Origin: a virus
Virus record (IMG/VR): IMGVR_UViG_3300030107_001023
Coordinates: 1-33,558 of that record
Length of the DNA stretch: 33,558 nt
Direction: 5' to 3' (one strand)
The translations under genes were made by a program, and so were the position numbers. Below are positions 6,474 to 19,136 of the stretch, piece after piece. The notes below the pieces were generated by a model that saw nothing but the letters and a program-made list of their open reading frames with translations, searched no databases and was not told the origin of the DNA. Position 1 is the stretch's first letter. Each line of letters opens with the position of its first letter.

Positions 6474-9400
6474 ATGTCAATACTGAAACTACAAAACTCA
6501 GATCCTTTTTTTTCTTTTATGGAAGAAAATGGTTTTATTGTCTCTCCAGAAATAGAGGAAGAAACAGAAGAAGAAAGACAGCAAAGGTTGGAAGAAGAAA
6601 GACAAGAAAGAATTAGATTAGAAGAAGAAAGGAAACAAATACAAGAGGAAGAACTTAAAAAAGCAGAAGAAGAAAAAATAAAACTTAAAGAACTTAATAG
6701 AAAAAAAACTAACTCTTTTACTTCTTTTGTTAAAGAAAATAATTTAGCTGTTACAGAAGTACAAAAAGATTTTAAATTTCCAAAACCAGTACCAACAGAA
6801 AAAGGCTCTGCTGTTTTATTAAAAAGAAAATTAGCTTATGGGGCTGCACAAGAACCTACTATTGCTGGTAATGTATATAGACTAGGAAAAGCTCGGTTAG
6901 AATCTTGGATGTCTAATAAGACATACAAACAAGCTGCTAGAGAAATAGAAGCCGAAAGACAAAAAGCAATCGCTATAAAATTTCCAGAACTCATAAATCA
7001 AGAAGAAGACGCTGCTATTCTAATGGGAAGAATGGGAGTAGCTATTGCTGATCCTGTTACTCTTTTTATTCCTTGGTTTAAAATAGCTAAAGCAGGTAAG
7101 TTAGCAACTACTGTTACTGGTGCTGGAGTTTCTGGAGTTGATATTGCTTTACGAGATGAAGCTTTGTATGGTGGAACTAATCCTACATCAGTAGGAATTG
7201 CAATGGCTTTAGGTGGAACAAGTTCATATATTAGCTCTTTAATATCTCCTATTACTAGAAAAACGGCTGATGAGTTTGTTGAGGTTACAGGAACTACAGG
7301 TAAAACCAACAGAAAAAAAGTTAATTTTAACAAAGAAAAAACTAACTTTAATCCTACGTCAGAACAAATTGATATGTTTGAAGAACTAGGACAAGAAGGA
7401 GCTATTCAAAACGCAAAACAAATTGCAAATATATTAGACCATAGTGATAATGCAGGATTAATTCATAATCAAATAGCTATTATTAGAGCAGAAAAACAAT
7501 TATTATCAGACGACATAAAAAAACTAAATAATGAAATTAAAAGCCTTATATCAAAAGATAAATCAACTGAAGTAAGAGATAAGGCAAAAATAAGAATTAA
7601 CGAACAAATTACTGCTAAAAATAAAGAGATAAATAAATTAACTTTAGAAATAGAACAAATTTATGTAGACAGATTACCACGAGAGTTTGCTGATATTGGA
7701 TATACAAATTTTATTAACGCTTATAAAAAAGGAGTTTTGACTAAAGATTTTGCATCTGCTTTAATGCAGGAAACAGTTAGACCTTTTGTTGGAATGATAG
7801 GTGGTTTTGCAGTAGGAGTAACTACTGCTGACGAAGACGATACTATGAATTATGTTTATACTATGATGGGCATGGGTGCTTTTTTAGGTGGACTACAAAA
7901 GAAAATTCAAGTTTCTGATTTTAAAATTAAAAAAACTGATCCTGTCTTAGCTGAATATATTAACACAGGAGAAGATATATACAGAAAAACAGTATGGGCT
8001 GGTTTAAAAAGATTAACAGCAGGTACTCATTCAGCTAAATTACAATCTGGTGTAGAAGCAGTAAGAGATTTTGGTGCGAGAATGTTTAAGGTTCAAGGGG
8101 CTGGTATTAAAACTGGTGTTCCAATAAAAGAATCTGTAGAAGAATCTAAACAAATATCTTTAAACTATTGGACTTCTATTGCTTTACCAGAAATTATTGG
8201 AGATTATTCTATGGACACTGTTATGGCAGCAGGTCGTTTAGTTAATCAAAGAGGAATGAGAACTAATGCAAAACATTCTTTCTTAAAGGAGGGAGATCTT
8301 CAGAATTTTGAAGCAAGAGAACTAGCTAGTAAAATTATAAATATTACAGATGAATTTAAAAAATATACTAAATCAGTAGGTATAAATTTAAAGGAAGAAG
8401 ATTTTTATGGTTTAACTCAGTTAGTAAAAAACCCTAACACCATAAGAGCTTTTAGAGATGATTTAAAAGAAGCATTTAAGATTCAATTTGTAAATGATCA
8501 TAAAACAGGAAAGTTAAAATTTACAGACGGTAAGTGGGTTCATCAAAGAGATATAGGAAAAGAAAACATACCTAGAGATAGGCTTTATAGTAAAAAACAA
8601 ATTGAAGATGCTTTAAAAGACGGTAAATGGTTAAATGAATGGGCAGAGAAACAAGCCAGAAATTATGTTAGAGGAGCATCTCAAGAAAGAAAAACATCTT
8701 TGTGGGCTTTAGATGAAACAGCAACTGTTAATGATCATCTTAGAAAAGGTAGTTTATTTAAGTCAAGAGGTGGAGAAGAAGAAAATTTAATTATAACTGC
8801 TGCTAGACATTTTGAAAATGAAAGAGTGTTGTATGATCAAGAAGCAAGAGCATTTATGGCAAGCAAAGATTTTTTTGAAGATGATCCTATAAATACTCTT
8901 CTTAATTTATTTGAGCAAACAATACCTGTTGCAGAATTTTCTAGGGTTTTTGGATCTAAAGGAGAGGGAATTAGACAAGTATTTCAAAATATAAACTCTC
9001 AAATAAGAAGAGGATCAGATAATATAAGTTTAGAAAATTTAGCAAAAAAACAAATAAAAGACGTTAAAGATTCTGTTGAAGCTTATTTTGGAATGTATGG
9101 AAAAATAGATGATTTTGGAGAAGGAGAACTTGCTAAAACTTTAGTTGCTTCTTTACAAGCAGTTTTATCTACCACAAAACTAACAAAAGTAGCCCTACCG
9201 AGTTTAGGAGATTTGATACAAACATATAAAAACAGTGGGTTTAAAGCTGCTGGTTTATCAGCAATTAGAAGATTTAATAGAGAAGAAAATTATATACCTT
9301 CTGAGTCTTTAGGTTTCAGAGCAAAAAGACCGCAACAAATAAAAGAAAAAGAAAGATATGGAGATGTTCTTTGGAATAACAGAAGATATAATGGTTTATT

Positions 9401-11171
9401 AGAACGAGAAATGAGAGCGTGGATGATTGAATCTAGTCAGAGTGGGGGTCTTGGACCTACAATACAAAGAGGATTATCTTCATATCAAAGGAAATTTTTT
9501 GAAATTGTTCAGCTAGGTCGTATAACTAGGTTTGCTAGAGAATATGCATTTGATGCAGGAGCAATACGAGCTTGGCAAATAGGTAAAGAAATAGGTGATA
9601 GCACTAATAAAGTTTCAAGAAAAATTCAAAAAGAATTAGATACATTAGGATTATCAGTAGATAATGCTCGTTATCTTAGCAAGTTTAAAAACATGAATGA
9701 TATAGAAGGAGATAAACTAGGAGAAAGATTTATAAATCGAGCAGGAATGAAATCAGCAGATCGTGATGCTTTGATACCTACTGTTGGAAACAGAAGATTA
9801 TTTTCGCAATCAAGAAACCCTACTGTTCGTTTCTTAGGAAGTTTTCTTTCTTGGGCGCAGGCAAAATCTAGTCAACTAAATTCGTTAGTATCTCGTGTAG
9901 AAAACGGAGATGCTGTTTTAGCTTTAAGAATGGCTTCGGCAATTCCTGTTTTTGGTGCTGTTCGTTATGCACAACTAGAGCTAAATCCTTCTTCTTCTTT
10001 TAAAAAAGATTCTATTGTGGCAGAAAGTAAATATATAAAAAACGAATTGAAACAACTTGGAGATGCTTTAATATTTTCAGCAGAAACAATGCCTTGGTAT
10101 TTAGATAAAGTTGTTAATGAAGTTAGATATGATTATGGTAGCACTCCTGTTAGTGGTCTCGCTCCTGTTATAGAACTAATGGATCAATTCGCAAGCAGTG
10201 CTATGAATGTAGGCTTTAGTAGAGACAGTAAAGAACAAGTTAAAGCTTTATGGGGAACAAAAGGAATACTAGGAACAACCATTCCTTTTTATAAAGATTT
10301 TGAAAAATGGGTTGATCTTGAAAAGAGAATGCTTGGTGAGTATGTTTATCGAGGAGAAGAACTTGAAGAACAAGAAGAAGAAAGAGTTGATGATAAAACT
10401 AGATTTTTCAAAGGCGGTGAAGTCTCAGAAGAAAACCCTGTACCTAACGCTGCTCCAGAACCTTCTGAAAGAGTCAACCCTTATACTGGACAGCCTTACG
10501 AAGCTGAGATGGAACGTCTTGGTTTTAAAGACGGCTTACTCGTATCTATAGGTGTTGCTCCTGTATCAGAAAAACAAATAGACAAACTTAAAAAAGGTTT
10601 GAAAAAACGTAAAGCAATGCGAGAAGGAAGTTTAATAAAAAAAGCTATAAAAGATTATTTTAGAGTAGAAGAACTAAAACAAGAGATAAGAGAACGAGAA
10701 GGATTTAAAGAAGAAGCTTACAAGCCTGATCCTACAGAAGAACATTATACTATTGGTTATGGTTTTTATGATCCCAATATAAAAGAAAACGACAGAATGA
10801 CAAGAGAAGAAGCTGAAGAAAGATTAGATAAAGAAGTAAACAAAAGAATAGAAAAAATTTATAAAGATATTCCCGGTATTATAAACTTTAGTCCAAGCGC
10901 ACAGAAAGCTCTTTTTTCAGAAACTTACAGAGGATCATTAACAACCGAAGGTAGTCCTAAAACTATTGCTTTGATAAACGAAGGAAGATACATGGATGCA
11001 GGCAAAGAGTTTTTAAATAACGATGAATACAGAAATGCAGAAGCATTAGGTATTCCCGGAATCAGACCACGTATGGAAGCAGTTAGAGATGAGCTATTTA
11101 AAATGGATGCTGGTTTTCAAAAACAACAATCTGATTTTTATCAAAGCGTAGTTCCTTACGGACAACAATAA
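6474..11171 (+). CDS. Giant internal virion protein with C-terminal lysozyme domain
   Basis: 1565 residues. The N-terminus is a Glu/Arg/Lys coiled coil (about 20-80), followed by Gly/Ala-rich hydrophobic segments (about 185-260 and 435-475) that could insert in membrane, then a long helical body. Residues about 1400-1550 form a T4-type (GH24) lysozyme domain. E1409 in REGF, D1419 in YKPDP and T1426 in HYTIGYG match the Glu-Asp-Thr triad of T4 lysozyme (E11, D20, T26), and a later ALFSETYRG helix also fits. T7 gp16 is a comparable giant ejection protein, but its murein-cleaving domain is N-terminal and of the transglycosylase type. The likely role is local peptidoglycan cleavage and channel formation during genome entry. 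The ribosome site before ATG 6474 is poor; coupling to the upstream gene is probable. Confidence 0.8.
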   Translation: MSILKLQNSDPFFSFMEENGFIVSPEIEEETEEERQQRLEEERQERIRLEEERKQIQEEELKKAEEEKIKLKELNRKKTNSFTSFVKENNLAVTEVQKDFKFPKPVPTEKGSAVLLKRKLAYGAAQEPTIAGNVYRLGKARLESWMSNKTYKQAAREIEAERQKAIAIKFPELINQEEDAAILMGRMGVAIADPVTLFIPWFKIAKAGKLATTVTGAGVSGVDIALRDEALYGGTNPTSVGIAMALGGTSSYISSLISPITRKTADEFVEVTGTTGKTNRKKVNFNKEKTNFNPTSEQIDMFEELGQEGAIQNAKQIANILDHSDNAGLIHNQIAIIRAEKQLLSDDIKKLNNEIKSLISKDKSTEVRDKAKIRINEQITAKNKEINKLTLEIEQIYVDRLPREFADIGYTNFINAYKKGVLTKDFASALMQETVRPFVGMIGGFAVGVTTADEDDTMNYVYTMMGMGAFLGGLQKKIQVSDFKIKKTDPVLAEYINTGEDIYRKTVWAGLKRLTAGTHSAKLQSGVEAVRDFGARMFKVQGAGIKTGVPIKESVEESKQISLNYWTSIALPEIIGDYSMDTVMAAGRLVNQRGMRTNAKHSFLKEGDLQNFEARELASKIINITDEFKKYTKSVGINLKEEDFYGLTQLVKNPNTIRAFRDDLKEAFKIQFVNDHKTGKLKFTDGKWVHQRDIGKENIPRDRLYSKKQIEDALKDGKWLNEWAEKQARNYVRGASQERKTSLWALDETATVNDHLRKGSLFKSRGGEEENLIITAARHFENERVLYDQEARAFMASKDFFEDDPINTLLNLFEQTIPVAEFSRVFGSKGEGIRQVFQNINSQIRRGSDNISLENLAKKQIKDVKDSVEAYFGMYGKIDDFGEGELAKTLVASLQAVLSTTKLTKVALPSLGDLIQTYKNSGFKAAGLSAIRRFNREENYIPSESLGFRAKRPQQIKEKERYGDVLWNNRRYNGLLEREMRAWMIESSQSGGLGPTIQRGLSSYQRKFFEIVQLGRITRFAREYAFDAGAIRAWQIGKEIGDSTNKVSRKIQKELDTLGLSVDNARYLSKFKNMNDIEGDKLGERFINRAGMKSADRDALIPTVGNRRLFSQSRNPTVRFLGSFLSWAQAKSSQLNSLVSRVENGDAVLALRMASAIPVFGAVRYAQLELNPSSSFKKDSIVAESKYIKNELKQLGDALIFSAETMPWYLDKVVNEVRYDYGSTPVSGLAPVIELMDQFASSAMNVGFSRDSKEQVKALWGTKGILGTTIPFYKDFEKWVDLEKRMLGEYVYRGEELEEQEEERVDDKTRFFKGGEVSEENPVPNAAPEPSERVNPYTGQPYEAEMERLGFKDGLLVSIGVAPVSEKQIDKLKKGLKKRKAMREGSLIKKAIKDYFRVEELKQEIREREGFKEEAYKPDPTEEHYTIGYGFYDPNIKENDRMTREEAEERLDKEVNKRIEKIYKDIPGIINFSPSAQKALFSETYRGSLTTEGSPKTIALINEGRYMDAGKEFLNNDEYRNAEALGIPGIRPRMEAVRDELFKMDAGFQKQQSDFYQSVVPYGQQ

Positions 11172-12388: not shown

Positions 12389-12408
12389 TCTTTAGCTTAA
12401 CAATAGGA

Positions 12409-12487
12409 GTCTCTTAGAACGCTCATATGGAGGTCTGAGAGGCATTTATAAACAGCATTCTTGCTTATAATAAGGAGAAGAAAAATG
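12409..12487 (+). promoter_or_regulatory. ROSE-like RNA thermometer in the hsp20 leader
   Basis: Two hairpins precede the hsp20 start. The first pairs 12409-12418 (GTCTCTTAGA) with 12434-12443 (TCTGAGAGGC), ten pairs with two wobbles. The second pairs 12458-12467 with 12471-12479 around a UAA triloop. It contains UUGCU at 12461-12465 facing AGGA of the ribosome site at 12473-12476, with G63 bulged. This UYGCU-to-Shine-Dalgarno pairing with a bulged G next to the start codon is the hallmark of ROSE elements, which repress translation of proteobacterial small heat shock genes until heat melts them. The AUG at 12485-12487 follows directly. Confidence 0.65.
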
Positions 12488-12928
12488 GTCAGAAAAAGAA
12501 ATGACTTTTATGGAATGGTGGATTTTAGAGATCCAATATTCTCATCATTGTTTGTAGGATTTGATGGTCTTTTTAAGAACATGGCAGAGATGTCAGCAGG
12601 TTCTAAAAGCCTACCAAGTTATCCGCCTTACAATGTGCTTCAAGACGGAGATGATTACGTAATTGAAATCGCTCTGGCAGGCATCAATAAAAAAGATGTC
12701 GACATTACATTACAAGAAAGTACTTTAACAGTTTCTTATGAGTCTTCAGAAGACGAAGGAGATAACAAACTGTATAAAGGAATTGCACAACGCTCGTTCA
12801 AAAGACAATTCAATTTGTCTGAGGACATAGAGGTTGAAGGTGCAAACTTTGTTAATGGTATGTTAAATATTTTCTTGAAGAGAATCATTCCAGAAGAGAA
12901 GAAACCCAAAAAAATAAAAATAAAATAA
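12485..12928 (+). CDS. Small heat shock protein, Hsp20/IbpA family
   Basis: 147 residues from ATG 12485, which has AAGGAG 7-12 bases upstream; an in-frame TTG at 12461 is rejected. The alpha-crystallin domain covers about 35-135. Characteristic features are YPPYNVLQDGDDYVIEIAL-AGI near the domain start, the GIAQRSFKRQFNL segment with its R-F-R-F-L pattern, a N-GML-I-LKR strand, and a C-terminal PEEKKPKKIKIK containing the I-x-I oligomerisation motif. IbpA-type proteins hold unfolding proteins in a refoldable state. Hsp20 genes are known in cyanophages. It could protect virion or host proteins late in infection. Its leader carries a probable RNA thermometer. Confidence 0.9.
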   Translation: MVRKRNDFYGMVDFRDPIFSSLFVGFDGLFKNMAEMSAGSKSLPSYPPYNVLQDGDDYVIEIALAGINKKDVDITLQESTLTVSYESSEDEGDNKLYKGIAQRSFKRQFNLSEDIEVEGANFVNGMLNIFLKRIIPEEKKPKKIKIK

Positions 12929-12929
12929 A

Positions 12930-13082
12930 ATGGAATACGATTTTGAAAGAAAATGGACAAGGGTGAATAAGGAATATCTTGCGACCTTAGTAGATGACTA
13001 CAAAAGATATCGTTTTATGTTTCGTTTACTCTTTGCTTATTTAATTTTAGATGTCTTAATACATTTTGATTTATTGTCATAA
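12930..13082 (+). CDS. 50-residue membrane-associated protein
   Basis: A 50-codon frame starts 1 base after the hsp20 stop and ends in TAATG shared with the next gene. The N-terminal 30 residues are charged and aromatic (FERKWTRVNKEY). The C-terminal 20 are hydrophobic (FRLLFAYLILDVLIHFDLL), suggesting one membrane span. There is no separate ribosome site, so translation probably restarts after hsp20. The tight junctions on both sides support a real gene; the function is unknown. Confidence 0.5.
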   Translation: MEYDFERKWTRVNKEYLATLVDDYKRYRFMFRLLFAYLILDVLIHFDLLS

Positions 13083-13378
13083 TGGCTGATGCATTTTGGT
13101 TGATTGCGGAGCTAGGATTACCGATAGCTGGTGGTTTAATCATGGCTTTCTTTATATTCTTAGTGATGAAACAACTTATGGAAAACCTTGTAAAAGAAAT
13201 AAAAACTATACAAGGTATTTCAAAAATGCTGATAACTAGAGCAGCTACTATGAACAACGATATAATTCGCATTGATACTAGTGTTTCTTCAGCGCTTAAC
13301 TTGCCTCCTGATTTAGACAGGATAGCAAGAGCAGAGAACTTTGTAGAAGATGGGAAGATAGATGCTAGGAGAGATTAG
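13082..13378 (+). CDS. Small membrane protein A of a paralogous pair
   Basis: 98 residues with one strong N-terminal span (about 10-30, LGLPIAGGLIMAFFIFLVM) and a helical cytoplasmic tail ending in charged residues. It shares its plan with the next gene: an I-x-x-x-G-x-P motif before the span, then an amphipathic region with DIIRIDTSVSSALNLP matched by DMIRLQQKVNTALSL. The start ATG overlaps the previous stop (TAATG). The layout resembles BhlA/UviB or YvrJ-like phage and bacteriocin-associated membrane peptides, some of which act as holins. That link is tentative. Confidence 0.6.
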   Translation: MADAFWLIAELGLPIAGGLIMAFFIFLVMKQLMENLVKEIKTIQGISKMLITRAATMNNDIIRIDTSVSSALNLPPDLDRIARAENFVEDGKIDARRD

Positions 13379-13638
13379 TGGGATTCGACATAGTTCAGAT
13401 TGTTTCGGATTTTGGCTTTCCAGTAGTTATGGTAGTTGGTCTAGGCTATTTTGTTTATTTTGTTTGGCAAACTATAACAACAGTTATCAGTCCTGCAATA
13501 AAAGATATGAGTAAAACAATTATTAGATTAACAGACCAATTAAGATTGCTTGATCAAGACATGATCAGGCTACAACAAAAAGTAAATACTGCTCTGAGTT
13601 TACGAGAGCATGACGAAGAAAGTGAGAAGAAAAATTAG
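13378..13638 (+). CDS. Small membrane protein B of a paralogous pair
   Basis: 86 residues starting at GTG 13378, which overlaps the previous TAG by one base. AGGAG six bases upstream supports this start. A hydrophobic span (about 13-33, FGFPVVMVVGLGYFVYFVW) is followed by a helical tail with regular heptads (IIRLTDQLRLLDQDMIRLQ) and a charged end. It is a diverged copy of the preceding gene. Its last 29 bases overlap the csgF start, tying the pair to the curli-like genes. A holin-like or secretion-support role is possible; neither is shown. Confidence 0.6.
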   Translation: MGFDIVQIVSDFGFPVVMVVGLGYFVYFVWQTITTVISPAIKDMSKTIIRLTDQLRLLDQDMIRLQQKVNTALSLREHDEESEKKN

Positions 13639-14116
13639 TATCAATTTAGCATCTTTTATTACAGGTATATTAATAATGTACTTGTGGAGTGCTGCCGTAT
13701 TTGCAGATGAAATAGTTCATCAATTTAAAAGTCCTAGTTTTAATGGTGTTGCTACCTCTTCTCATTATTTAACTATTGATGAACAAGAAAAAACAAGAAG
13801 AGATGAAATTGCTCAAGAAATTGAAGATGCTTTAAAAGAAGCAGAACGTGAAGCGGAGAATACAACGCTTGCAAAATTTTTAAGAAACTTAGAATCAAGA
13901 ATCTATTCACAATTATCAAGAGATATTGCTGAGTCTTTGTTTGATTCTGAGAAAGGAGGCATAGGCGGAGAGTTTGAATTAGAAGGAAGCATTATAAAAT
14001 TTCTTAATGATGGAATTAATATAACATTAACAGTTATAGATGCAGATGGGAATGTAACTGAGATAGTGATACCTATTGGTATATTTGGAATATGTTCAGA
14101 CGAGTGTGGTATTTAG
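13610..14116 (+). CDS. csgF: CsgF-like curli assembly factor
   Basis: 168 residues with an N-terminal signal peptide (hydrophobic 12-30, likely cleavage after VFA before DEI). The mature start reads VHQFKSPSFNG, matching the conserved F-x-F-x-N/S-P-x-F-x-G start of CsgF, the segment that inserts in the CsgG pore. A helical middle (NLESRIYSQLSRDIAESLF) corresponds to the N-F-x-x-x-I-x-S-Q-x-x-x-x-L region of E. coli CsgF. The C-terminal strands (IIKFLNDGINITLTVIDADG, then TEIVIPIG) match its beta domain. An extra acidic helix (about 58-85) is inserted compared with E. coli. CsgF works at the cell surface to couple subunit export to nucleation. The csgG start overlaps its end by 25 bases. Confidence 0.85.
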   Translation: MTKKVRRKISINLASFITGILIMYLWSAAVFADEIVHQFKSPSFNGVATSSHYLTIDEQEKTRRDEIAQEIEDALKEAEREAENTTLAKFLRNLESRIYSQLSRDIAESLFDSEKGGIGGEFELEGSIIKFLNDGINITLTVIDADGNVTEIVIPIGIFGICSDECGI

Positions 14117-14919
14117 TTTTTTTATTGCCACTGCTTTATAGTTGTGCAAGTTTTGCTCCTGTAGGACATACAGGATGTGCTAACTTTTTGGAGTGTGTTG
14201 AGAAACCAGAAATTGTAAGACCAACACAAGATAGATTAATTAACTTACCTGTTCCTAATCAGAAAGCTGTGGTGGCTGTTTACTCTTTTAAAGACTTAAC
14301 AGGTCAAAGAAAGAGTTCACAAAAGATGGCATTGTTTAGTACAGCCGTAACTCAAGGAGCTGACAATTATCTTATTGACGCTTTAAGAAGTGCAGGCAAA
14401 GGCAGGTGGTTTGTTGTAGTAGAGAGAGCTGGGTTAGATGGTTTAACCAGAGAACGACAGCTTATTAAGAATACTAGACAAACTTACAACGGAGAAAAAG
14501 GAAATACTTTAAAACCTTTACTCTTTGCAGGGTTAATTATTGAGGGAGGAATCGTTCAATACGATACAAATATTGGAACAGGTGGAAACGGAGCAAGATA
14601 TTTAGGTATAGGTTCTAATAATCAATGGAGAAGAGATGAGATTACAGTGTCATTAAGAGCTGTTCTTGTCCAAACTGGTGAGGTTATGATCAATACTATG
14701 GTTAGTAAAACAGTATTAAGCGCAGGAGTAAGCCGTGATGTGTTCCGTTTTATTGAAATGGGAACTGAGTTGGTTGAATTAGAAACAGGATATAGTCAGA
14801 ACGAAGCAATGGGTTATGCGACACGATCTGCAATTGAGGAAGCTGTTTATTCTTTAATACAACAAGGTTTGGAACAACAATTATGGGATTTTAATTATGA
14901 AGAAGAAATTATTAATTAG
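14092..14919 (+). CDS. csgG: CsgG-like outer-membrane curli secretion channel
   Basis: 275 residues, close to the 277 of E. coli CsgG. A lipoprotein signal ends in LLYSC with the lipid-acceptor Cys18. Family motifs follow in order: LPVPNQKAVVAVYSFKDLTGQ, FSTAV-QGAD, GRWFVVVERAGLDGLTRERQ, LLFAGLIIEGGIVQYDTN, GARYLGIG, then SLRAVLVQTGEV, SKTVLSAGVSRDVFRFIE and ETGYSQNEA, each with a direct counterpart in E. coli CsgG. The protein should form the nonameric outer-membrane pore that exports curli subunits. At the constriction the Phe before STAV is kept, but the Tyr and Asn of E. coli (Y51, N55) appear replaced and one residue is inserted. The next gene starts inside its last 23 bases. Confidence 0.92.
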   Translation: MFRRVWYLVFLLPLLYSCASFAPVGHTGCANFLECVEKPEIVRPTQDRLINLPVPNQKAVVAVYSFKDLTGQRKSSQKMALFSTAVTQGADNYLIDALRSAGKGRWFVVVERAGLDGLTRERQLIKNTRQTYNGEKGNTLKPLLFAGLIIEGGIVQYDTNIGTGGNGARYLGIGSNNQWRRDEITVSLRAVLVQTGEVMINTMVSKTVLSAGVSRDVFRFIEMGTELVELETGYSQNEAMGYATRSAIEEAVYSLIQQGLEQQLWDFNYEEEIIN

Positions 14920-15586
14920 TTTTATAGCGCTGTTTGTTGCTTCTGTAGGGTATGCTGGCAACAACGACATTTATATAACTCAATCAGGTACTGGTTTAAC
15001 TATGAACATAGATCAAATCGGTGACACAAACAAAGTAGGTACTTCACAAACTAGAGCAACCTTCAGTGGAACTTCTATGACTGTGGATATTGACCAAGTA
15101 GGAGACAGCAACACGATGGCTGCCTCAGTAGCACAAGGTAACAGTACTTCATTTACTGCATCAACAACAGGAGATAGCAACACAACTACACTAGCTTTAG
15201 GTGCTACAGGAGATGTTGCTAATACTGATTTTGATTATGCTGCTACAGGTGACTCAAACACAGTAACCTTTACTCAGGGTGCAGACGCAACAGCAACTGC
15301 AGGTAATCAAGATATAGTAATAGCAGGAACCTCAAATAATTTAAACGCAAAATGCGAAGTTGTAGGCTGTATTAACAATTGGGATGTCGATGGAGACTCA
15401 AACGATATAGATACTACACAAACAGGAAACGCAGACCATTCAATTACAGCAGATATTACTGGTAGTACAAACGATATTGACATCGATCAAACAAATAGTA
15501 CAGGTAGTACTTCGGGTGTAGTTGTCATAACAGCAACAACAAGCAATGGTACTATAGACATAGACCAATGCACAAGTGGCTGTTAA
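14897..15586 (+). CDS. Curlin-repeat secreted protein 1
   Basis: 229 residues. A signal peptide (KKKLLISFIALFVASVGYA) is followed by imperfect strand-loop repeats such as IYITQSGTGLTMNIDQIGD-N, VDIDQVGDSNT, NDIDIDQ and GTIDIDQ. These match the curlin pattern S-x-x-x-I-x-Q-x-G-x-x-N. Composition is dominated by Thr, Ser, Asp, Asn and Gly with few charged Lys or Arg after the signal, typical of secreted amyloid fibre subunits. The middle repeats are degenerate (GDSNT units without Gln). Two Cys pairs (CEVVGC and a C-terminal CTSGC) are unlike E. coli CsgA, which has none. Adjacent CsgG and CsgF make export through that channel likely. It could be the major fibre subunit. Confidence 0.8.
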   Translation: MKKKLLISFIALFVASVGYAGNNDIYITQSGTGLTMNIDQIGDTNKVGTSQTRATFSGTSMTVDIDQVGDSNTMAASVAQGNSTSFTASTTGDSNTTTLALGATGDVANTDFDYAATGDSNTVTFTQGADATATAGNQDIVIAGTSNNLNAKCEVVGCINNWDVDGDSNDIDTTQTGNADHSITADITGSTNDIDIDQTNSTGSTSGVVVITATTSNGTIDIDQCTSGC

Positions 15587-16665
15587 TATTATTTCTTTTT
15601 ATATCTAACGCATATTCTGAAATAGGTGAGATATCGGAACTTCGTGGTAACGGAGAGATTCTAAGACAATCAGGAGGAGATAAACTACTTGCAGAATTGG
15701 CATTGGATATTCTTTCTTATGATGATATACGGACAGGCAATGGTCGTATTGCTGTCAAGTTTATTGATGATTCTGTTATAAAACTTACAGAGCATTCAAA
15801 GATTGTTGTTGATGAATATATCTTTGATCCTGATCCATCTAAAAGTAAGCTTGCACTTAACATGGCTAGCGGTACAGCAAGATTCATTACAGGTGCATTA
15901 GGAAAGATAGATAAAAAAAATATTAGAATAAATACACCTAGTGCTACAGTAGCTATTAGAGGTACGGATTTCACGACAACAGTAGACGAACTAGGCAGAT
16001 CTTTAGTAATTCTTTTACCGAATCCTGACGGAACTTCTTCAGGAGAAATCACAGTAGAGACAATGGCAGGCATAGAGGTTTTAAATAAACCTTATCAAGC
16101 AACAATGGTTAGTATGTCTGAAAGTCCTCCAACCAAACCAGTGACTTTGGTTAATATGTCATTGAATTTTATAGATAATCTTTTGATAATCAACCCACCA
16201 GATGAAGTTCAACAAGCTGTAGAAGAACAGTCTCAAAGTTCAAACAATGTACTTGACGTAGACTTATTAGAAGAAAATGATTTAGATGATAATGATCTTG
16301 ACAAAGATGAGTTAGAAGAAGAGATAACAAGATTAGATATTGACTTCTTAGCGGTAGACTTTTTACAAGATCTATTAGAAATAATGGAGACAACAGCTTC
16401 AGGTAAAAAAGAAAAAGGAACAGACGGAGAACTAGACGGAGTACAACTAGAAGGAATTATACCTACCTTTGATCAGAATGCGCAAGTATATAGTTTTGTA
16501 GATGGAGAAGTTTTAACATTAGTGAGACAAGTAGAAAACACAGTTGACTTGGAACTTGACAAAGGTGGTGCATATAATATACAAATACTTTCTGCTGGAA
16601 AGTTAATAAATATAACAGTAAACGGAGGCGGAGAAAATGAGATTGTTATCAATCAGTCTGATTAG
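15568..16665 (+). CDS. Secreted FecR-domain protein with curlin-like tail
   Basis: 365 residues. A signal peptide (LLILFLFISNAYS, cleavage near residue 17) is followed by a FecR-type domain (about 18-170). Its diagnostic core is TPSATVAIRGTDFTTTVDE, about 128-146. An acidic Asp/Glu/Leu linker follows (about 225-300). The last 65 residues are beta-rich and end GGGENEIVINQSD, with the same INQSD end as the second curlin protein. No membrane span follows the signal, so this is an exported stand-alone FecR domain and not an anti-sigma receptor. FecR domains of this kind are found in surface and polysaccharide-associated proteins. It lies between two curlin genes and overlaps both, so an anchor or nucleator role for the fibres is a reasonable inference. 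Confidence 0.8.
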   Translation: MHKWLLILFLFISNAYSEIGEISELRGNGEILRQSGGDKLLAELALDILSYDDIRTGNGRIAVKFIDDSVIKLTEHSKIVVDEYIFDPDPSKSKLALNMASGTARFITGALGKIDKKNIRINTPSATVAIRGTDFTTTVDELGRSLVILLPNPDGTSSGEITVETMAGIEVLNKPYQATMVSMSESPPTKPVTLVNMSLNFIDNLLIINPPDEVQQAVEEQSQSSNNVLDVDLLEENDLDDNDLDKDELEEEITRLDIDFLAVDFLQDLLEIMETTASGKKEKGTDGELDGVQLEGIIPTFDQNAQVYSFVDGEVLTLVRQVENTVDLELDKGGAYNIQILSAGKLINITVNGGGENEIVINQSD

Positions 16666-17350
16666 TTTATTTTGTTTTAGTCTCTATGCAGGAGACAACA
16701 GTGTTGAGGTAAGAACCAAAGGCAGTAACTCGTTAATACATATTGATCAAATAGGTAATGGAAACACTGCTAGAGTTTGGTGTGGTTTATCTCAGGGTAA
16801 TTACACTACTCATAAATGCAAGAATGCAGAAATAGATATAGACCAAAACGGAACAAGTAATGTAGCAAGAGCATACAGTCAAGTCGCAAACCACACTGGA
16901 AACGAATACAAGATTGAACAAGATGGAAACGATAACTTTGGTTATATCGATGCAGACGATGACGGCAATGACATGGATATTGTACAAGACGGAAACAACA
17001 ACGATGCTGAAATCTATATGCAAGGTGATAACAACATCTACTCCATAACACAAACTGGTGATGATAAAGAAGGAGAGATCAGAGCATTCGGTGATAATTC
17101 AAACTTCTCAATTACGCAATCAGGAAGCGGTGAACACTATGCCAAGATATATGCAAGCGGTTCTGCTGATAATAACGATGCAACAATAACACAAACAGGT
17201 AGTGGTGATCATTATATGAAATTAAATTTTTATACTGATGACTATAATGTAACTGCTAGTCAGTCTGGAGCAACAAACAAATCAATCACAGTAAATTATA
17301 ATTGTGTTACAAACTGTAATAAAACAATAACGATTAATCAAAGTGATTAG
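16637..17350 (+). CDS. Curlin-repeat secreted protein 2
   Basis: 237 residues with a signal peptide ending near SLYA before GDNSVEV. At least seven curlin-like repeats follow: SLIHIDQIGNGNTARV, AEIDIDQNGTSNVARA, YKIEQDGNDNFGYI, MDIVQDGNNNDAEI, YSITQTGDDKEGEI, FSITQSGSGEHYAKI and ATITQTGSGDHYMKL. This is a clearer set than in protein 1 and fits the I-x-Q-x-G-x-x-N-x-A pattern of CsgA and CsgB. Four Cys occur, two near residues 55-66 and two near the end (CVTNC). GGAG precedes the ATG and 29 bases overlap the FecR gene. The INQSD terminus matches the FecR protein. It is probably a fibre subunit or nucleator. Confidence 0.87.
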   Translation: MRLLSISLISLFCFSLYAGDNSVEVRTKGSNSLIHIDQIGNGNTARVWCGLSQGNYTTHKCKNAEIDIDQNGTSNVARAYSQVANHTGNEYKIEQDGNDNFGYIDADDDGNDMDIVQDGNNNDAEIYMQGDNNIYSITQTGDDKEGEIRAFGDNSNFSITQSGSGEHYAKIYASGSADNNDATITQTGSGDHYMKLNFYTDDYNVTASQSGATNKSITVNYNCVTNCNKTITINQSD

Positions 17351-19136
17351 AGTTAAACAACTATTTTGTTTGTTAGTATTATTGGCAATGCCTTTGGTAT
17401 TCCAACCAACATTTTATCAAGTATTAAAACTTAAAACATTTGATGCGCTTGTAGAAGAAAGAGAGCCATCAAATTATTTTTCAATTCTAAACATAACTGA
17501 ACAAGACGTAGCAGATGAAGGAGGCTATCCGCTTCCTCGTAAACGTCTAGCGGAGATACAAAATGAACTTATTAATCAAGGTGCGCTTGGTGTTGGTTGG
17601 GTTATATCCTTTCCTCAACCAGATCGTTTTGATGGTGACATTGCATTCGCAGAAAGTCTTTCATCTGCTCCGAGTATTCTAGCAACCTTTGAAAATGAGA
17701 ATGGTACATATCCGTTAACAACAGGTACAGTTATTTTAGGTGAAGATCGTGGAGGCTTTCAAGCAAAAGGAGTTGTTGAGAACATACCAATACTAAGAGA
17801 GTCTGCATTTCAAGGTATCGCAGTAGCTCCTGCAGATGTAGATCAATTGGTCAGACGAATGCCTTTATTATTACGGACTCCCGATGGATGGGTATCTGCA
17901 TATGGCACAGAAGTTTTAAAAGTATTGGCAGGTGCTGATACTTACGTGATAAAAACAAACGAGAATGGTATTCAAGAAGTAAGAGTCAAAGGAATACCTG
18001 CTGTACCCACAGATAGTCTTGGTCGTAAATGGATCAGTTGGGTAGATACTCCAGAGTTTTCTTTATCTGACATAAAAAGAACAGACTTAATTCAAAATCG
18101 TTTTGTATTTGTAGGTGTCACAGCTTTAGGAGTGATGCCTCAAATAGCCACACCTGCTGGGCTTTTAGAGCCTCACAAAATACAAGCAGCTTTATCTGAA
18201 TCAATACTTATTCAAGACAGTCCATCTATTCCTGACTTTGCAATTTCAATAGAACTTTTAATGTTTGTTTTTGGTGTTCTTTTTGTTTGGGGAATGATTA
18301 TATTGGCAGGCATAAACGTAGGTTTAATTCTTGTGTCAATGATGTTTGCTTTTACAATAGCAATGCAGTTTTATTTTGTAAGAACAGAAGGAATGTTACT
18401 TGACTTTACATGGTCTTTAATATCTCAATTCATTACAGCAAGCATTGCATTCTATATAAGATTCAGAGAACAATACAAACTAAGACAACAAATTAAAAAA
18501 CAATTTGAACATTACTTAGATCCTAGACAAGTTAAAAGACTGCAAAGAAATCCTGATCTATTAAAACTAGGTGGAGAAAAAAGATATGCAACGTATCTGT
18601 TCACAGACGTAAGAGGTTTTACTTCTATGTCAGAGTCATTACCACCTGAAGATGTAACTTATATCATGAACAAAGCTTTGACTGCTCAACAAAAAGCAGT
18701 ACAAAAGAACGAAGGCATGGTCGATAAATATATTGGTGATGCAATGATGGCTATATTCAATGCGCCTTTGGACCAACCAAACCACGAAACAAAAGCAGTC
18801 AGTTGTGCATTAGATATAATAAAAAATATGGAAGAACTAAACGAAGAACTGTCACAAAAAGGATTACCATCGATAGCCATAGGTATTGGGATCAACAGTG
18901 GTGAGGCTGTGATAGGCAATATGGGTAGTGCTTCTAGATTTGATTATACTGCTATAGGAGATGCAGTTAATACAGGAGCAAGACTAGAATCAGCTACCAA
19001 GGAAGCAGGGGTTGATCTTCTTATAGGAGAAACAACAACTATGTTTAATAAGCACGAAGGTTTTGAGTTCGTAGATGAGATCTCAGTCAAAGGAAAAGAA
19101 AAACCACTTAAAGTTTTTACTCTACATATTGAATAG
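17343..19136 (+). CDS. CHASE2-domain membrane adenylate cyclase
   Basis: 597 residues from GTG 17343, overlapping the curlin stop by 8 bases. An N-terminal span (about 7-22) leads into a CHASE2-type extracytoplasmic sensor (about 25-295), then three spans (about 298-318, 322-342, 352-372) and a class III nucleotide cyclase domain (about 410-595). Metal-binding D422 (FTDVRGFT) and D466 (KYIGDAMMAIF) are present. K462 and D534 (FDYTAIGD) are the adenine-selecting pair, and N543 and R547 (VNTGARLE) stabilise the transition state. The enzyme therefore looks intact and ATP-specific, making cAMP in response to an envelope signal. It is the last gene of the curli-like cassette. The ligand is unknown. 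Confidence 0.9.
   Translation: MIRVKQLFCLLVLLAMPLVFQPTFYQVLKLKTFDALVEEREPSNYFSILNITEQDVADEGGYPLPRKRLAEIQNELINQGALGVGWVISFPQPDRFDGDIAFAESLSSAPSILATFENENGTYPLTTGTVILGEDRGGFQAKGVVENIPILRESAFQGIAVAPADVDQLVRRMPLLLRTPDGWVSAYGTEVLKVLAGADTYVIKTNENGIQEVRVKGIPAVPTDSLGRKWISWVDTPEFSLSDIKRTDLIQNRFVFVGVTALGVMPQIATPAGLLEPHKIQAALSESILIQDSPSIPDFAISIELLMFVFGVLFVWGMIILAGINVGLILVSMMFAFTIAMQFYFVRTEGMLLDFTWSLISQFITASIAFYIRFREQYKLRQQIKKQFEHYLDPRQVKRLQRNPDLLKLGGEKRYATYLFTDVRGFTSMSESLPPEDVTYIMNKALTAQQKAVQKNEGMVDKYIGDAMMAIFNAPLDQPNHETKAVSCALDIIKNMEELNEELSQKGLPSIAIGIGINSGEAVIGNMGSASRFDYTAIGDAVNTGARLESATKEAGVDLLIGETTTMFNKHEGFEFVDEISVKGKEKPLKVFTLHIE

Follow-up and report, generated by a model that had tools for sequence, protein, structure and literature searches.

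A candidate ROSE-class RNA thermometer before hsp20 in a marine phage, with counterparts in other phages and in SAR11 bacteria

The hsp20 gene and its neighbors

The window analyzed here is a viral record of 33,558 bases from a marine phage. It encodes a small heat shock protein of 147 amino acids with an alpha-crystallin domain (Hsp20; Table 1), whose ATG start at 12485 is conserved among close relatives of the window. This ATG was preferred over a TTG at 12461, which would give a protein of 155 amino acids and falls within the Shine-Dalgarno (SD) hairpin of the leader. Shortly downstream of hsp20, two adjacent small paralogs (13082-13638) both belong to phrog_18771, and one of them has a weak holin match. 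Toward the C-terminus of a 1,565-residue protein encoded at 6474-11171 is a phage lysozyme domain (residues 1407-1530).

Also downstream of hsp20 lies a module of the curli (type VIII secretion) type, which spans 13610-19136. Curli modules have been published for pelagiphages (PMC9599517), and the primase-helicase of the window is closest to those of the Pelagibacter phages HTVC115P and HTVC103P (46-47% identity). The phage is therefore likely to infect a SAR11-like host.

Table 1. Features of the window around hsp20
Feature	Position	Strand	Basis
Upstream hairpin, helix GUCUCUUAGA/UCUGAGAGGC	12405-12444	+	Minimum free energy fold, -17 kcal/mol
Best match of refined covariance model R2 in the whole window	12425-12482	+	19.4 bits, E 0.005
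ROSE SD-sequestering hairpin (predicted), TTCTTGCTTATAATAAGGAGAA	12458-12479	+	Fold; UUCUUGCUUA paired with UAAGGAGAA
UUGCU anti-SD motif (ROSE signature U(U/C)GCU)	12461-12465	+	Motif counts at viral hsp20 starts
Shine-Dalgarno sequence AGGAG	12473-12477	+	Sequence
hsp20 (small heat shock protein, 147 aa, alpha-crystallin domain)	12485-12928	+	PF00011, E 4.5e-16; phrog_432, E 8e-36
CsgF	13610-14116
CsgG	14092-14919
Curlin-repeat protein	14897-15586
FecR	15568-16665
CHASE2-adenylate/guanylate cyclase	17343-19136

Structure of the hsp20 leader

The predicted SD hairpin, UUCUUGCUUA-UAA-UAAGGAGAA, has a three-base loop and nine pairs, including one U.G, with G12463 bulged. Its outer pairs (last two digits of positions 124xx) are U58-A79, U59-A78, C60-G77, U61-A76 and U62.G75; inside the bulged G63 follow C64-G74, U65-A73, U66-A72 and A67-U71. 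The UUGCU motif is thereby paired imperfectly with AGGA at 12473-12476. The first-pass annotation had described this hairpin as burying AGGAG with a G bulged in UUGCU, which is confirmed, sequence and coordinates included; its count of ten pairs has to be corrected to nine in the ROSE register. At 20 C a register-shifted hairpin spanning 12458-12482 is isoenergetic with that register (-6.35 versus -6.32 kcal/mol), which predicts breathing over part of the SD.

A further hairpin, which the same annotation had placed just upstream, is real and carries a bulged G of its own. Beyond the GUCUCUUAGA/UCUGAGAGGC helix it continues with a C-G pair, the bulged G at 12421, a CUC/GAG helix and the loop AUAUG. 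It is predicted to be more stable than the SD hairpin and is conserved in 11 relatives of the window clade, with 95% of alignment cells paired. Folding of the leader, proposed earlier as a check, gave ROSE-like hairpins and an energy better than that of 199 of 200 dinucleotide shuffles (z -3.6). Among the close relatives, L001-L008 share the window's leader. In L009 and L011-L015 the SD hairpin closely resembles that of the window, and an insert or a third hairpin separates it from the upstream one; the window thus has two hairpins, and relatives as close as L013 and L015 have three.

ROSE-like elements are defined by a U(U/C)GCU motif paired imperfectly with the SD, a bulged G and at least two hairpins (PMC11182007, PMC11342760). 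Their hairpins number two to four, the last one containing the SD, and classical members lead small heat shock genes. In bacteria, ROSE elements in the leaders of such genes are thermometers of established function (PMC4166951). The window leader combines motif-SD pairing, a bulged G, two hairpins and a small heat shock gene. Judged by this anatomy, it is a member of the ROSE-like class, in a setting that appears to be new and widespread among phages.

The predicted accessibility of the SD at 20 C has a median of 0.13 in hsp20 leaders versus 0.55 in controls. For the window leader the predicted value rises from 0.48 at 20 C to 0.62 at 45 C, but the melting prediction is uninformative because it also fails for the Salmonella ibpA ROSE element, which it moves only from 0.00 to 0.02.

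Occurrence of the motif before viral hsp20 genes

Relatives of hsp20 were compared across 205 viral records or loci, isolates included. The pattern U(U/C)GCU followed by AGGA within 14 bases was found upstream of 172 of 192 viral hsp20 starts having an SD versus 3 of 376 starts of other genes at the same loci, which places the hairpin beyond chance. Counted by protein cluster, 43 of 49 viral hsp20 clusters have it, and all ten isolate phages carry the element before hsp20.

Covariance models and compensatory changes

Diverse leaders aligned with MAFFT had the SD hairpin out of place, and these alignments were discarded; those used were a small structural seed (A4) and a model-based alignment of 55 phage and SAR11 leaders (A5). 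A first covariance model (R1), built from five phage leaders and searched against 319 kb, returned 62 matches at E values up to 10, all but two of them at hsp20 or ibpB leaders. R1 recovers chromosomal SAR11 hsp20 leaders with E values down to 1e-7, its first off-target match has an E value of about 7, and it found no match in 20 cyanobacterial loci.

A5 is biased toward the structure because it was fitted to it. Pairing holds in 92.8% of its cells, and both partners change in 11 of its 15 pairs. Its covariation score of 0.577 compares with 0.167 for shuffles and no more than 0.129 when partners are slid. The first helix shows double changes at all eight pairs, and its bulged G is present in 52 of the 55 sequences. 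In the SD helix the outer pairs covary and the core is nearly invariant, as expected for a helix one arm of which must match 16S rRNA; the inner core pairs (UA, YG, CG, UA) and the bulged G are kept in 55/55 leaders. An alignment of 44 clusters by the motif only has the same sign as A5 (first outer pair 98% versus 89%, second 45% versus 28%), and at most one in 2,000 shuffles was as good. The compensatory changes for which the first-pass annotation had looked to related phages thus occur across the 55 phage and SAR11 leaders; the window's own clade, upstream hairpin included, shows no covariation, its sequences being too similar.

A refined model (R2) was made from A5 with the window sequence left out and its relative L014 included; its E values are rough because calibration was shortened. 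Its best match in the window (Table 1) covers the SD hairpin and has an upstream half that departs from the window's own predicted hairpin; the next-best match in the 33.5 kb has an E value of 1.5. Each of ten complete isolate phage genomes (54-205 kb) has exactly one strong R2 match, which ends at the hsp20 start or a few bases off; seven of the ten contributed rows to the model, and L203, L204 and L207 did not. There is practically no prospect that the hairpin arose by chance in an AT-rich leader: short AT-rich hairpins are common and the motif alone occurs at 3/376 control starts, but this explanation is refuted by the count at viral hsp20 starts, the covariation of both helices and the single match per phage genome.

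Several leaders negative for the pattern carry the element or a variant of it. In L300, L309 and L080 it sits before a short open reading frame upstream of hsp20 (R2 E 8e-10 to 6e-8). The order of ROSE element, open reading frame of 71-79 amino acids and hsp20 (L300:1187-1484, L309:1178-1451, L080:2673-2957) suggests a two-gene operon under thermometer control; one of these reading frames has a sub-threshold phasin match (E 0.014). Pattern-negative L231 matches R2 at E 0.002. Three variant phage leaders (L058:2896-2951, L055:2895-2933, L301:1437-1485) are weak or degenerate, with weak R2 matches and a bulged-G hairpin that is seemingly displaced relative to the SD, for example AACGCUU...GGAGGUU.

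Relation to the Rfam ROSE families

The Rfam ROSE models, against which the first-pass annotation had proposed scoring the leader, have no match in the window at either gathering or relaxed thresholds. None of the viral relatives scanned reaches a gathering score and two phages score weakly; phage Melnitz-3 matches ROSE_3 over both hairpins at 34.1 bits (E 0.0011; gathering score 43). Four SAR11 hsp20 loci scanned with Rfam were not recognized as ROSE either, so the miss of the window looks like a gap in the library.

ROSE_3 (RF02523) shares a two-hairpin plan with the phage family: AUGCC...GGGU with a bulged G comes first, followed by (U/C)GCU...AGG, also with a bulged G, before the start codon. 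The window is nevertheless unmatched; its first hairpin is longer and has a different loop. In ROSE_2 (RF01832), the family of enterobacterial ibpA, the SD hairpin (UCUCGCU...AGGAG) has the same core as that of the phage element, whereas the upstream hairpins differ and the ROSE_2 gene is bacterial. Salmonella ibpA matches ROSE_2 at 95 bits, and the Salmonella ibpB leader matches R2 at E 0.0004.

SAR11, cyanobacteria and the origin of gene and leader

The element is found in the hsp20 leaders of all 25 SAR11-family loci (L339, L366-L389), where it follows the same two-hairpin plan as in phages, and R2 matched 43 of 60 SAR11-family genomes, nearly always once. Cyanophage hsp20 genes also carry it. 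Among marine picocyanobacteria, 0 of 20 hsp20 leaders have the element, and R2 gave weak matches in 5 of 61 genomes (E 8e-4 to 0.01), one of them on a phage-like contig of G004. Cyanobacteria as a whole are not without such elements, since a ROSE-like element is reported for one Anabaena hsp gene in work cited in PMC4166951. Two hsp20 genes with a phage-type leader (L342, L344) lie on contigs of 19 kb and 11 kb in Pelagibacter and Synechococcus metagenome-assembled genomes; these are probably phage contigs binned into bacterial genomes.

In an Hsp20 tree, phages, SAR11, most Rhodospirillaceae and IbpA stand apart from cyanobacterial Hsp20 at 100/100, and within the SAR11 clade lie the Hsp20 proteins of HTVC008M-type phages (100/96). 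At least five changes of the phage label are needed on this tree, in which finer placement is limited by long branches. Cyanophage Hsp20 had been described as nearer to class A bacterial than to cyanobacterial Hsp20, and lateral transfer was proposed (PMC3827213); the leader evidence agrees with that proposal. Because phage Hsp20 sides with proteobacterial IbpA in the tree, the phage gene and its leader probably travelled together. The earlier suggestion that the gene came with its leader from a proteobacterial host is accordingly well supported, by the tree and by the 25/25 SAR11 loci, and it applies to a large set of phages, with acquisition probably repeated several times, rather than being an oddity of one phage.

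Promoters

A late-promoter-like TATAAATA lies upstream of hsp20 in 12 of 43 phage clusters versus 7 of 361 controls, and a sigma-70-type promoter in 7 of 43. Promoters of the RpoH type were found with a stricter pattern in 0 of 43 phage clusters and with a looser one in 14 of 25 SAR11 leaders; this contrast, in which SAR11 leaders often have an RpoH-like promoter and phage copies none, is suggestive only, because the two patterns were not identical. For hsp20 of the window itself, the search yielded no promoter.

The late-promoter-like sequences would fit a T4-style switch between early and late expression, in which the hairpin silences read-through early transcripts and late ones start inside it. 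Such a switch is very improbable. In isolates where a TATA-type box is seen close to the leader it lies 60-82 nucleotides before the start codon, so transcripts should start at the 5' hairpin or immediately ahead of it and hold the whole SD hairpin; moreover, the element is conserved equally in bacteria.

Thermometer or constant brake

The SD hairpin could instead act as a constant brake or as a protein-binding operator, for example for RegA. The gene regA precedes hsp20 in the cyanophages ACG-2014e, S-CRM01, S-PM2 and Bellamy, and the thermal response predicted for the window leader is weak. However, HTVC103P, HTVC115P and P-SSM4 have the element with no regA annotated beside hsp20, and the same element occurs in SAR11 chromosomes. 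Mutation of a bacterial ROSE-like element identified the U.G pair and bulged G, both conserved here, as the features that govern its heat induction, which was lost when the bulged G was deleted and the U.G pair strengthened together (PMC11342760). The target is a heat-shock chaperone, before whose bacterial homologs ROSE elements act as thermometers (PMC4166951). A brake or operator that does not respond to temperature is thus unlikely.

Taken as a whole, the evidence is best explained by the window hsp20 leader being a ROSE-class RNA thermometer, probably acquired together with its gene, and we hold this reading with high confidence. On sequence comparison, the SD is sequestered by a conserved, covarying hairpin with a ROSE core; heat-induced translation of the phage hsp20 is inferred by analogy with studied ROSE elements. 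As in those elements, the second hairpin would block ribosome binding at low temperature, and on warming its weak U.G pair and bulge would let it open, so that the chaperone would be made in the heat-stressed infected cell. The first hairpin probably stays folded and holds the second in register.

The source was probably hsp20 genes of SAR11-like or other class A (IbpA-type) proteobacteria, and many marine and freshwater phages have retained both gene and leader. Some of these have a late-type TATAAATA or sigma-70-type promoter in the place of the bacterial RpoH-type one, so that expression would be gated by infection at transcription and by temperature at translation. The wider proposition is that ROSE control spans the chaperone genes of cyanophages, pelagiphages, methylophages and others, moved from proteobacteria into cyanophages, whose hosts' sampled cyanobacterial hsp20 genes are without the element, and was rewired to phage promoters; we consider it reasonably probable.

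Significance

In the literature searched, the RNA thermometers reported from phages are lambda cIII, the fourU element of SPbeta blyA and a sigma-70 fourU element in a gut phage (PMC11182007, PMC4166951); by one count, SPbeta blyA was only the second to be found in any phage (PMC11182007). These leaders are also temperature-responsive, but they belong to other classes and other genes, and lambda cIII responds in the opposite direction (PMC4166951). The open-licence papers searched contained no report of a ROSE element from a phage or from SAR11, although work in subscription journals could exist. The hsp20 gene is counted as core in T4-like cyanophages (PMC9004378), and nothing on its regulation there was found in the literature searched.

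The phage elements are best regarded as a new, widespread branch of a known class of RNA thermometers. They add to ROSE a large branch, in phages and SAR11, that Rfam does not recognize, and they offer a clear example of a regulatory RNA seemingly carried along with its gene across host phyla. If nearly every copy of the phage gene does carry a thermometer, the mRNA of these phages would itself be a direct temperature sensor, which would bear on infection under ocean warming and heat waves.
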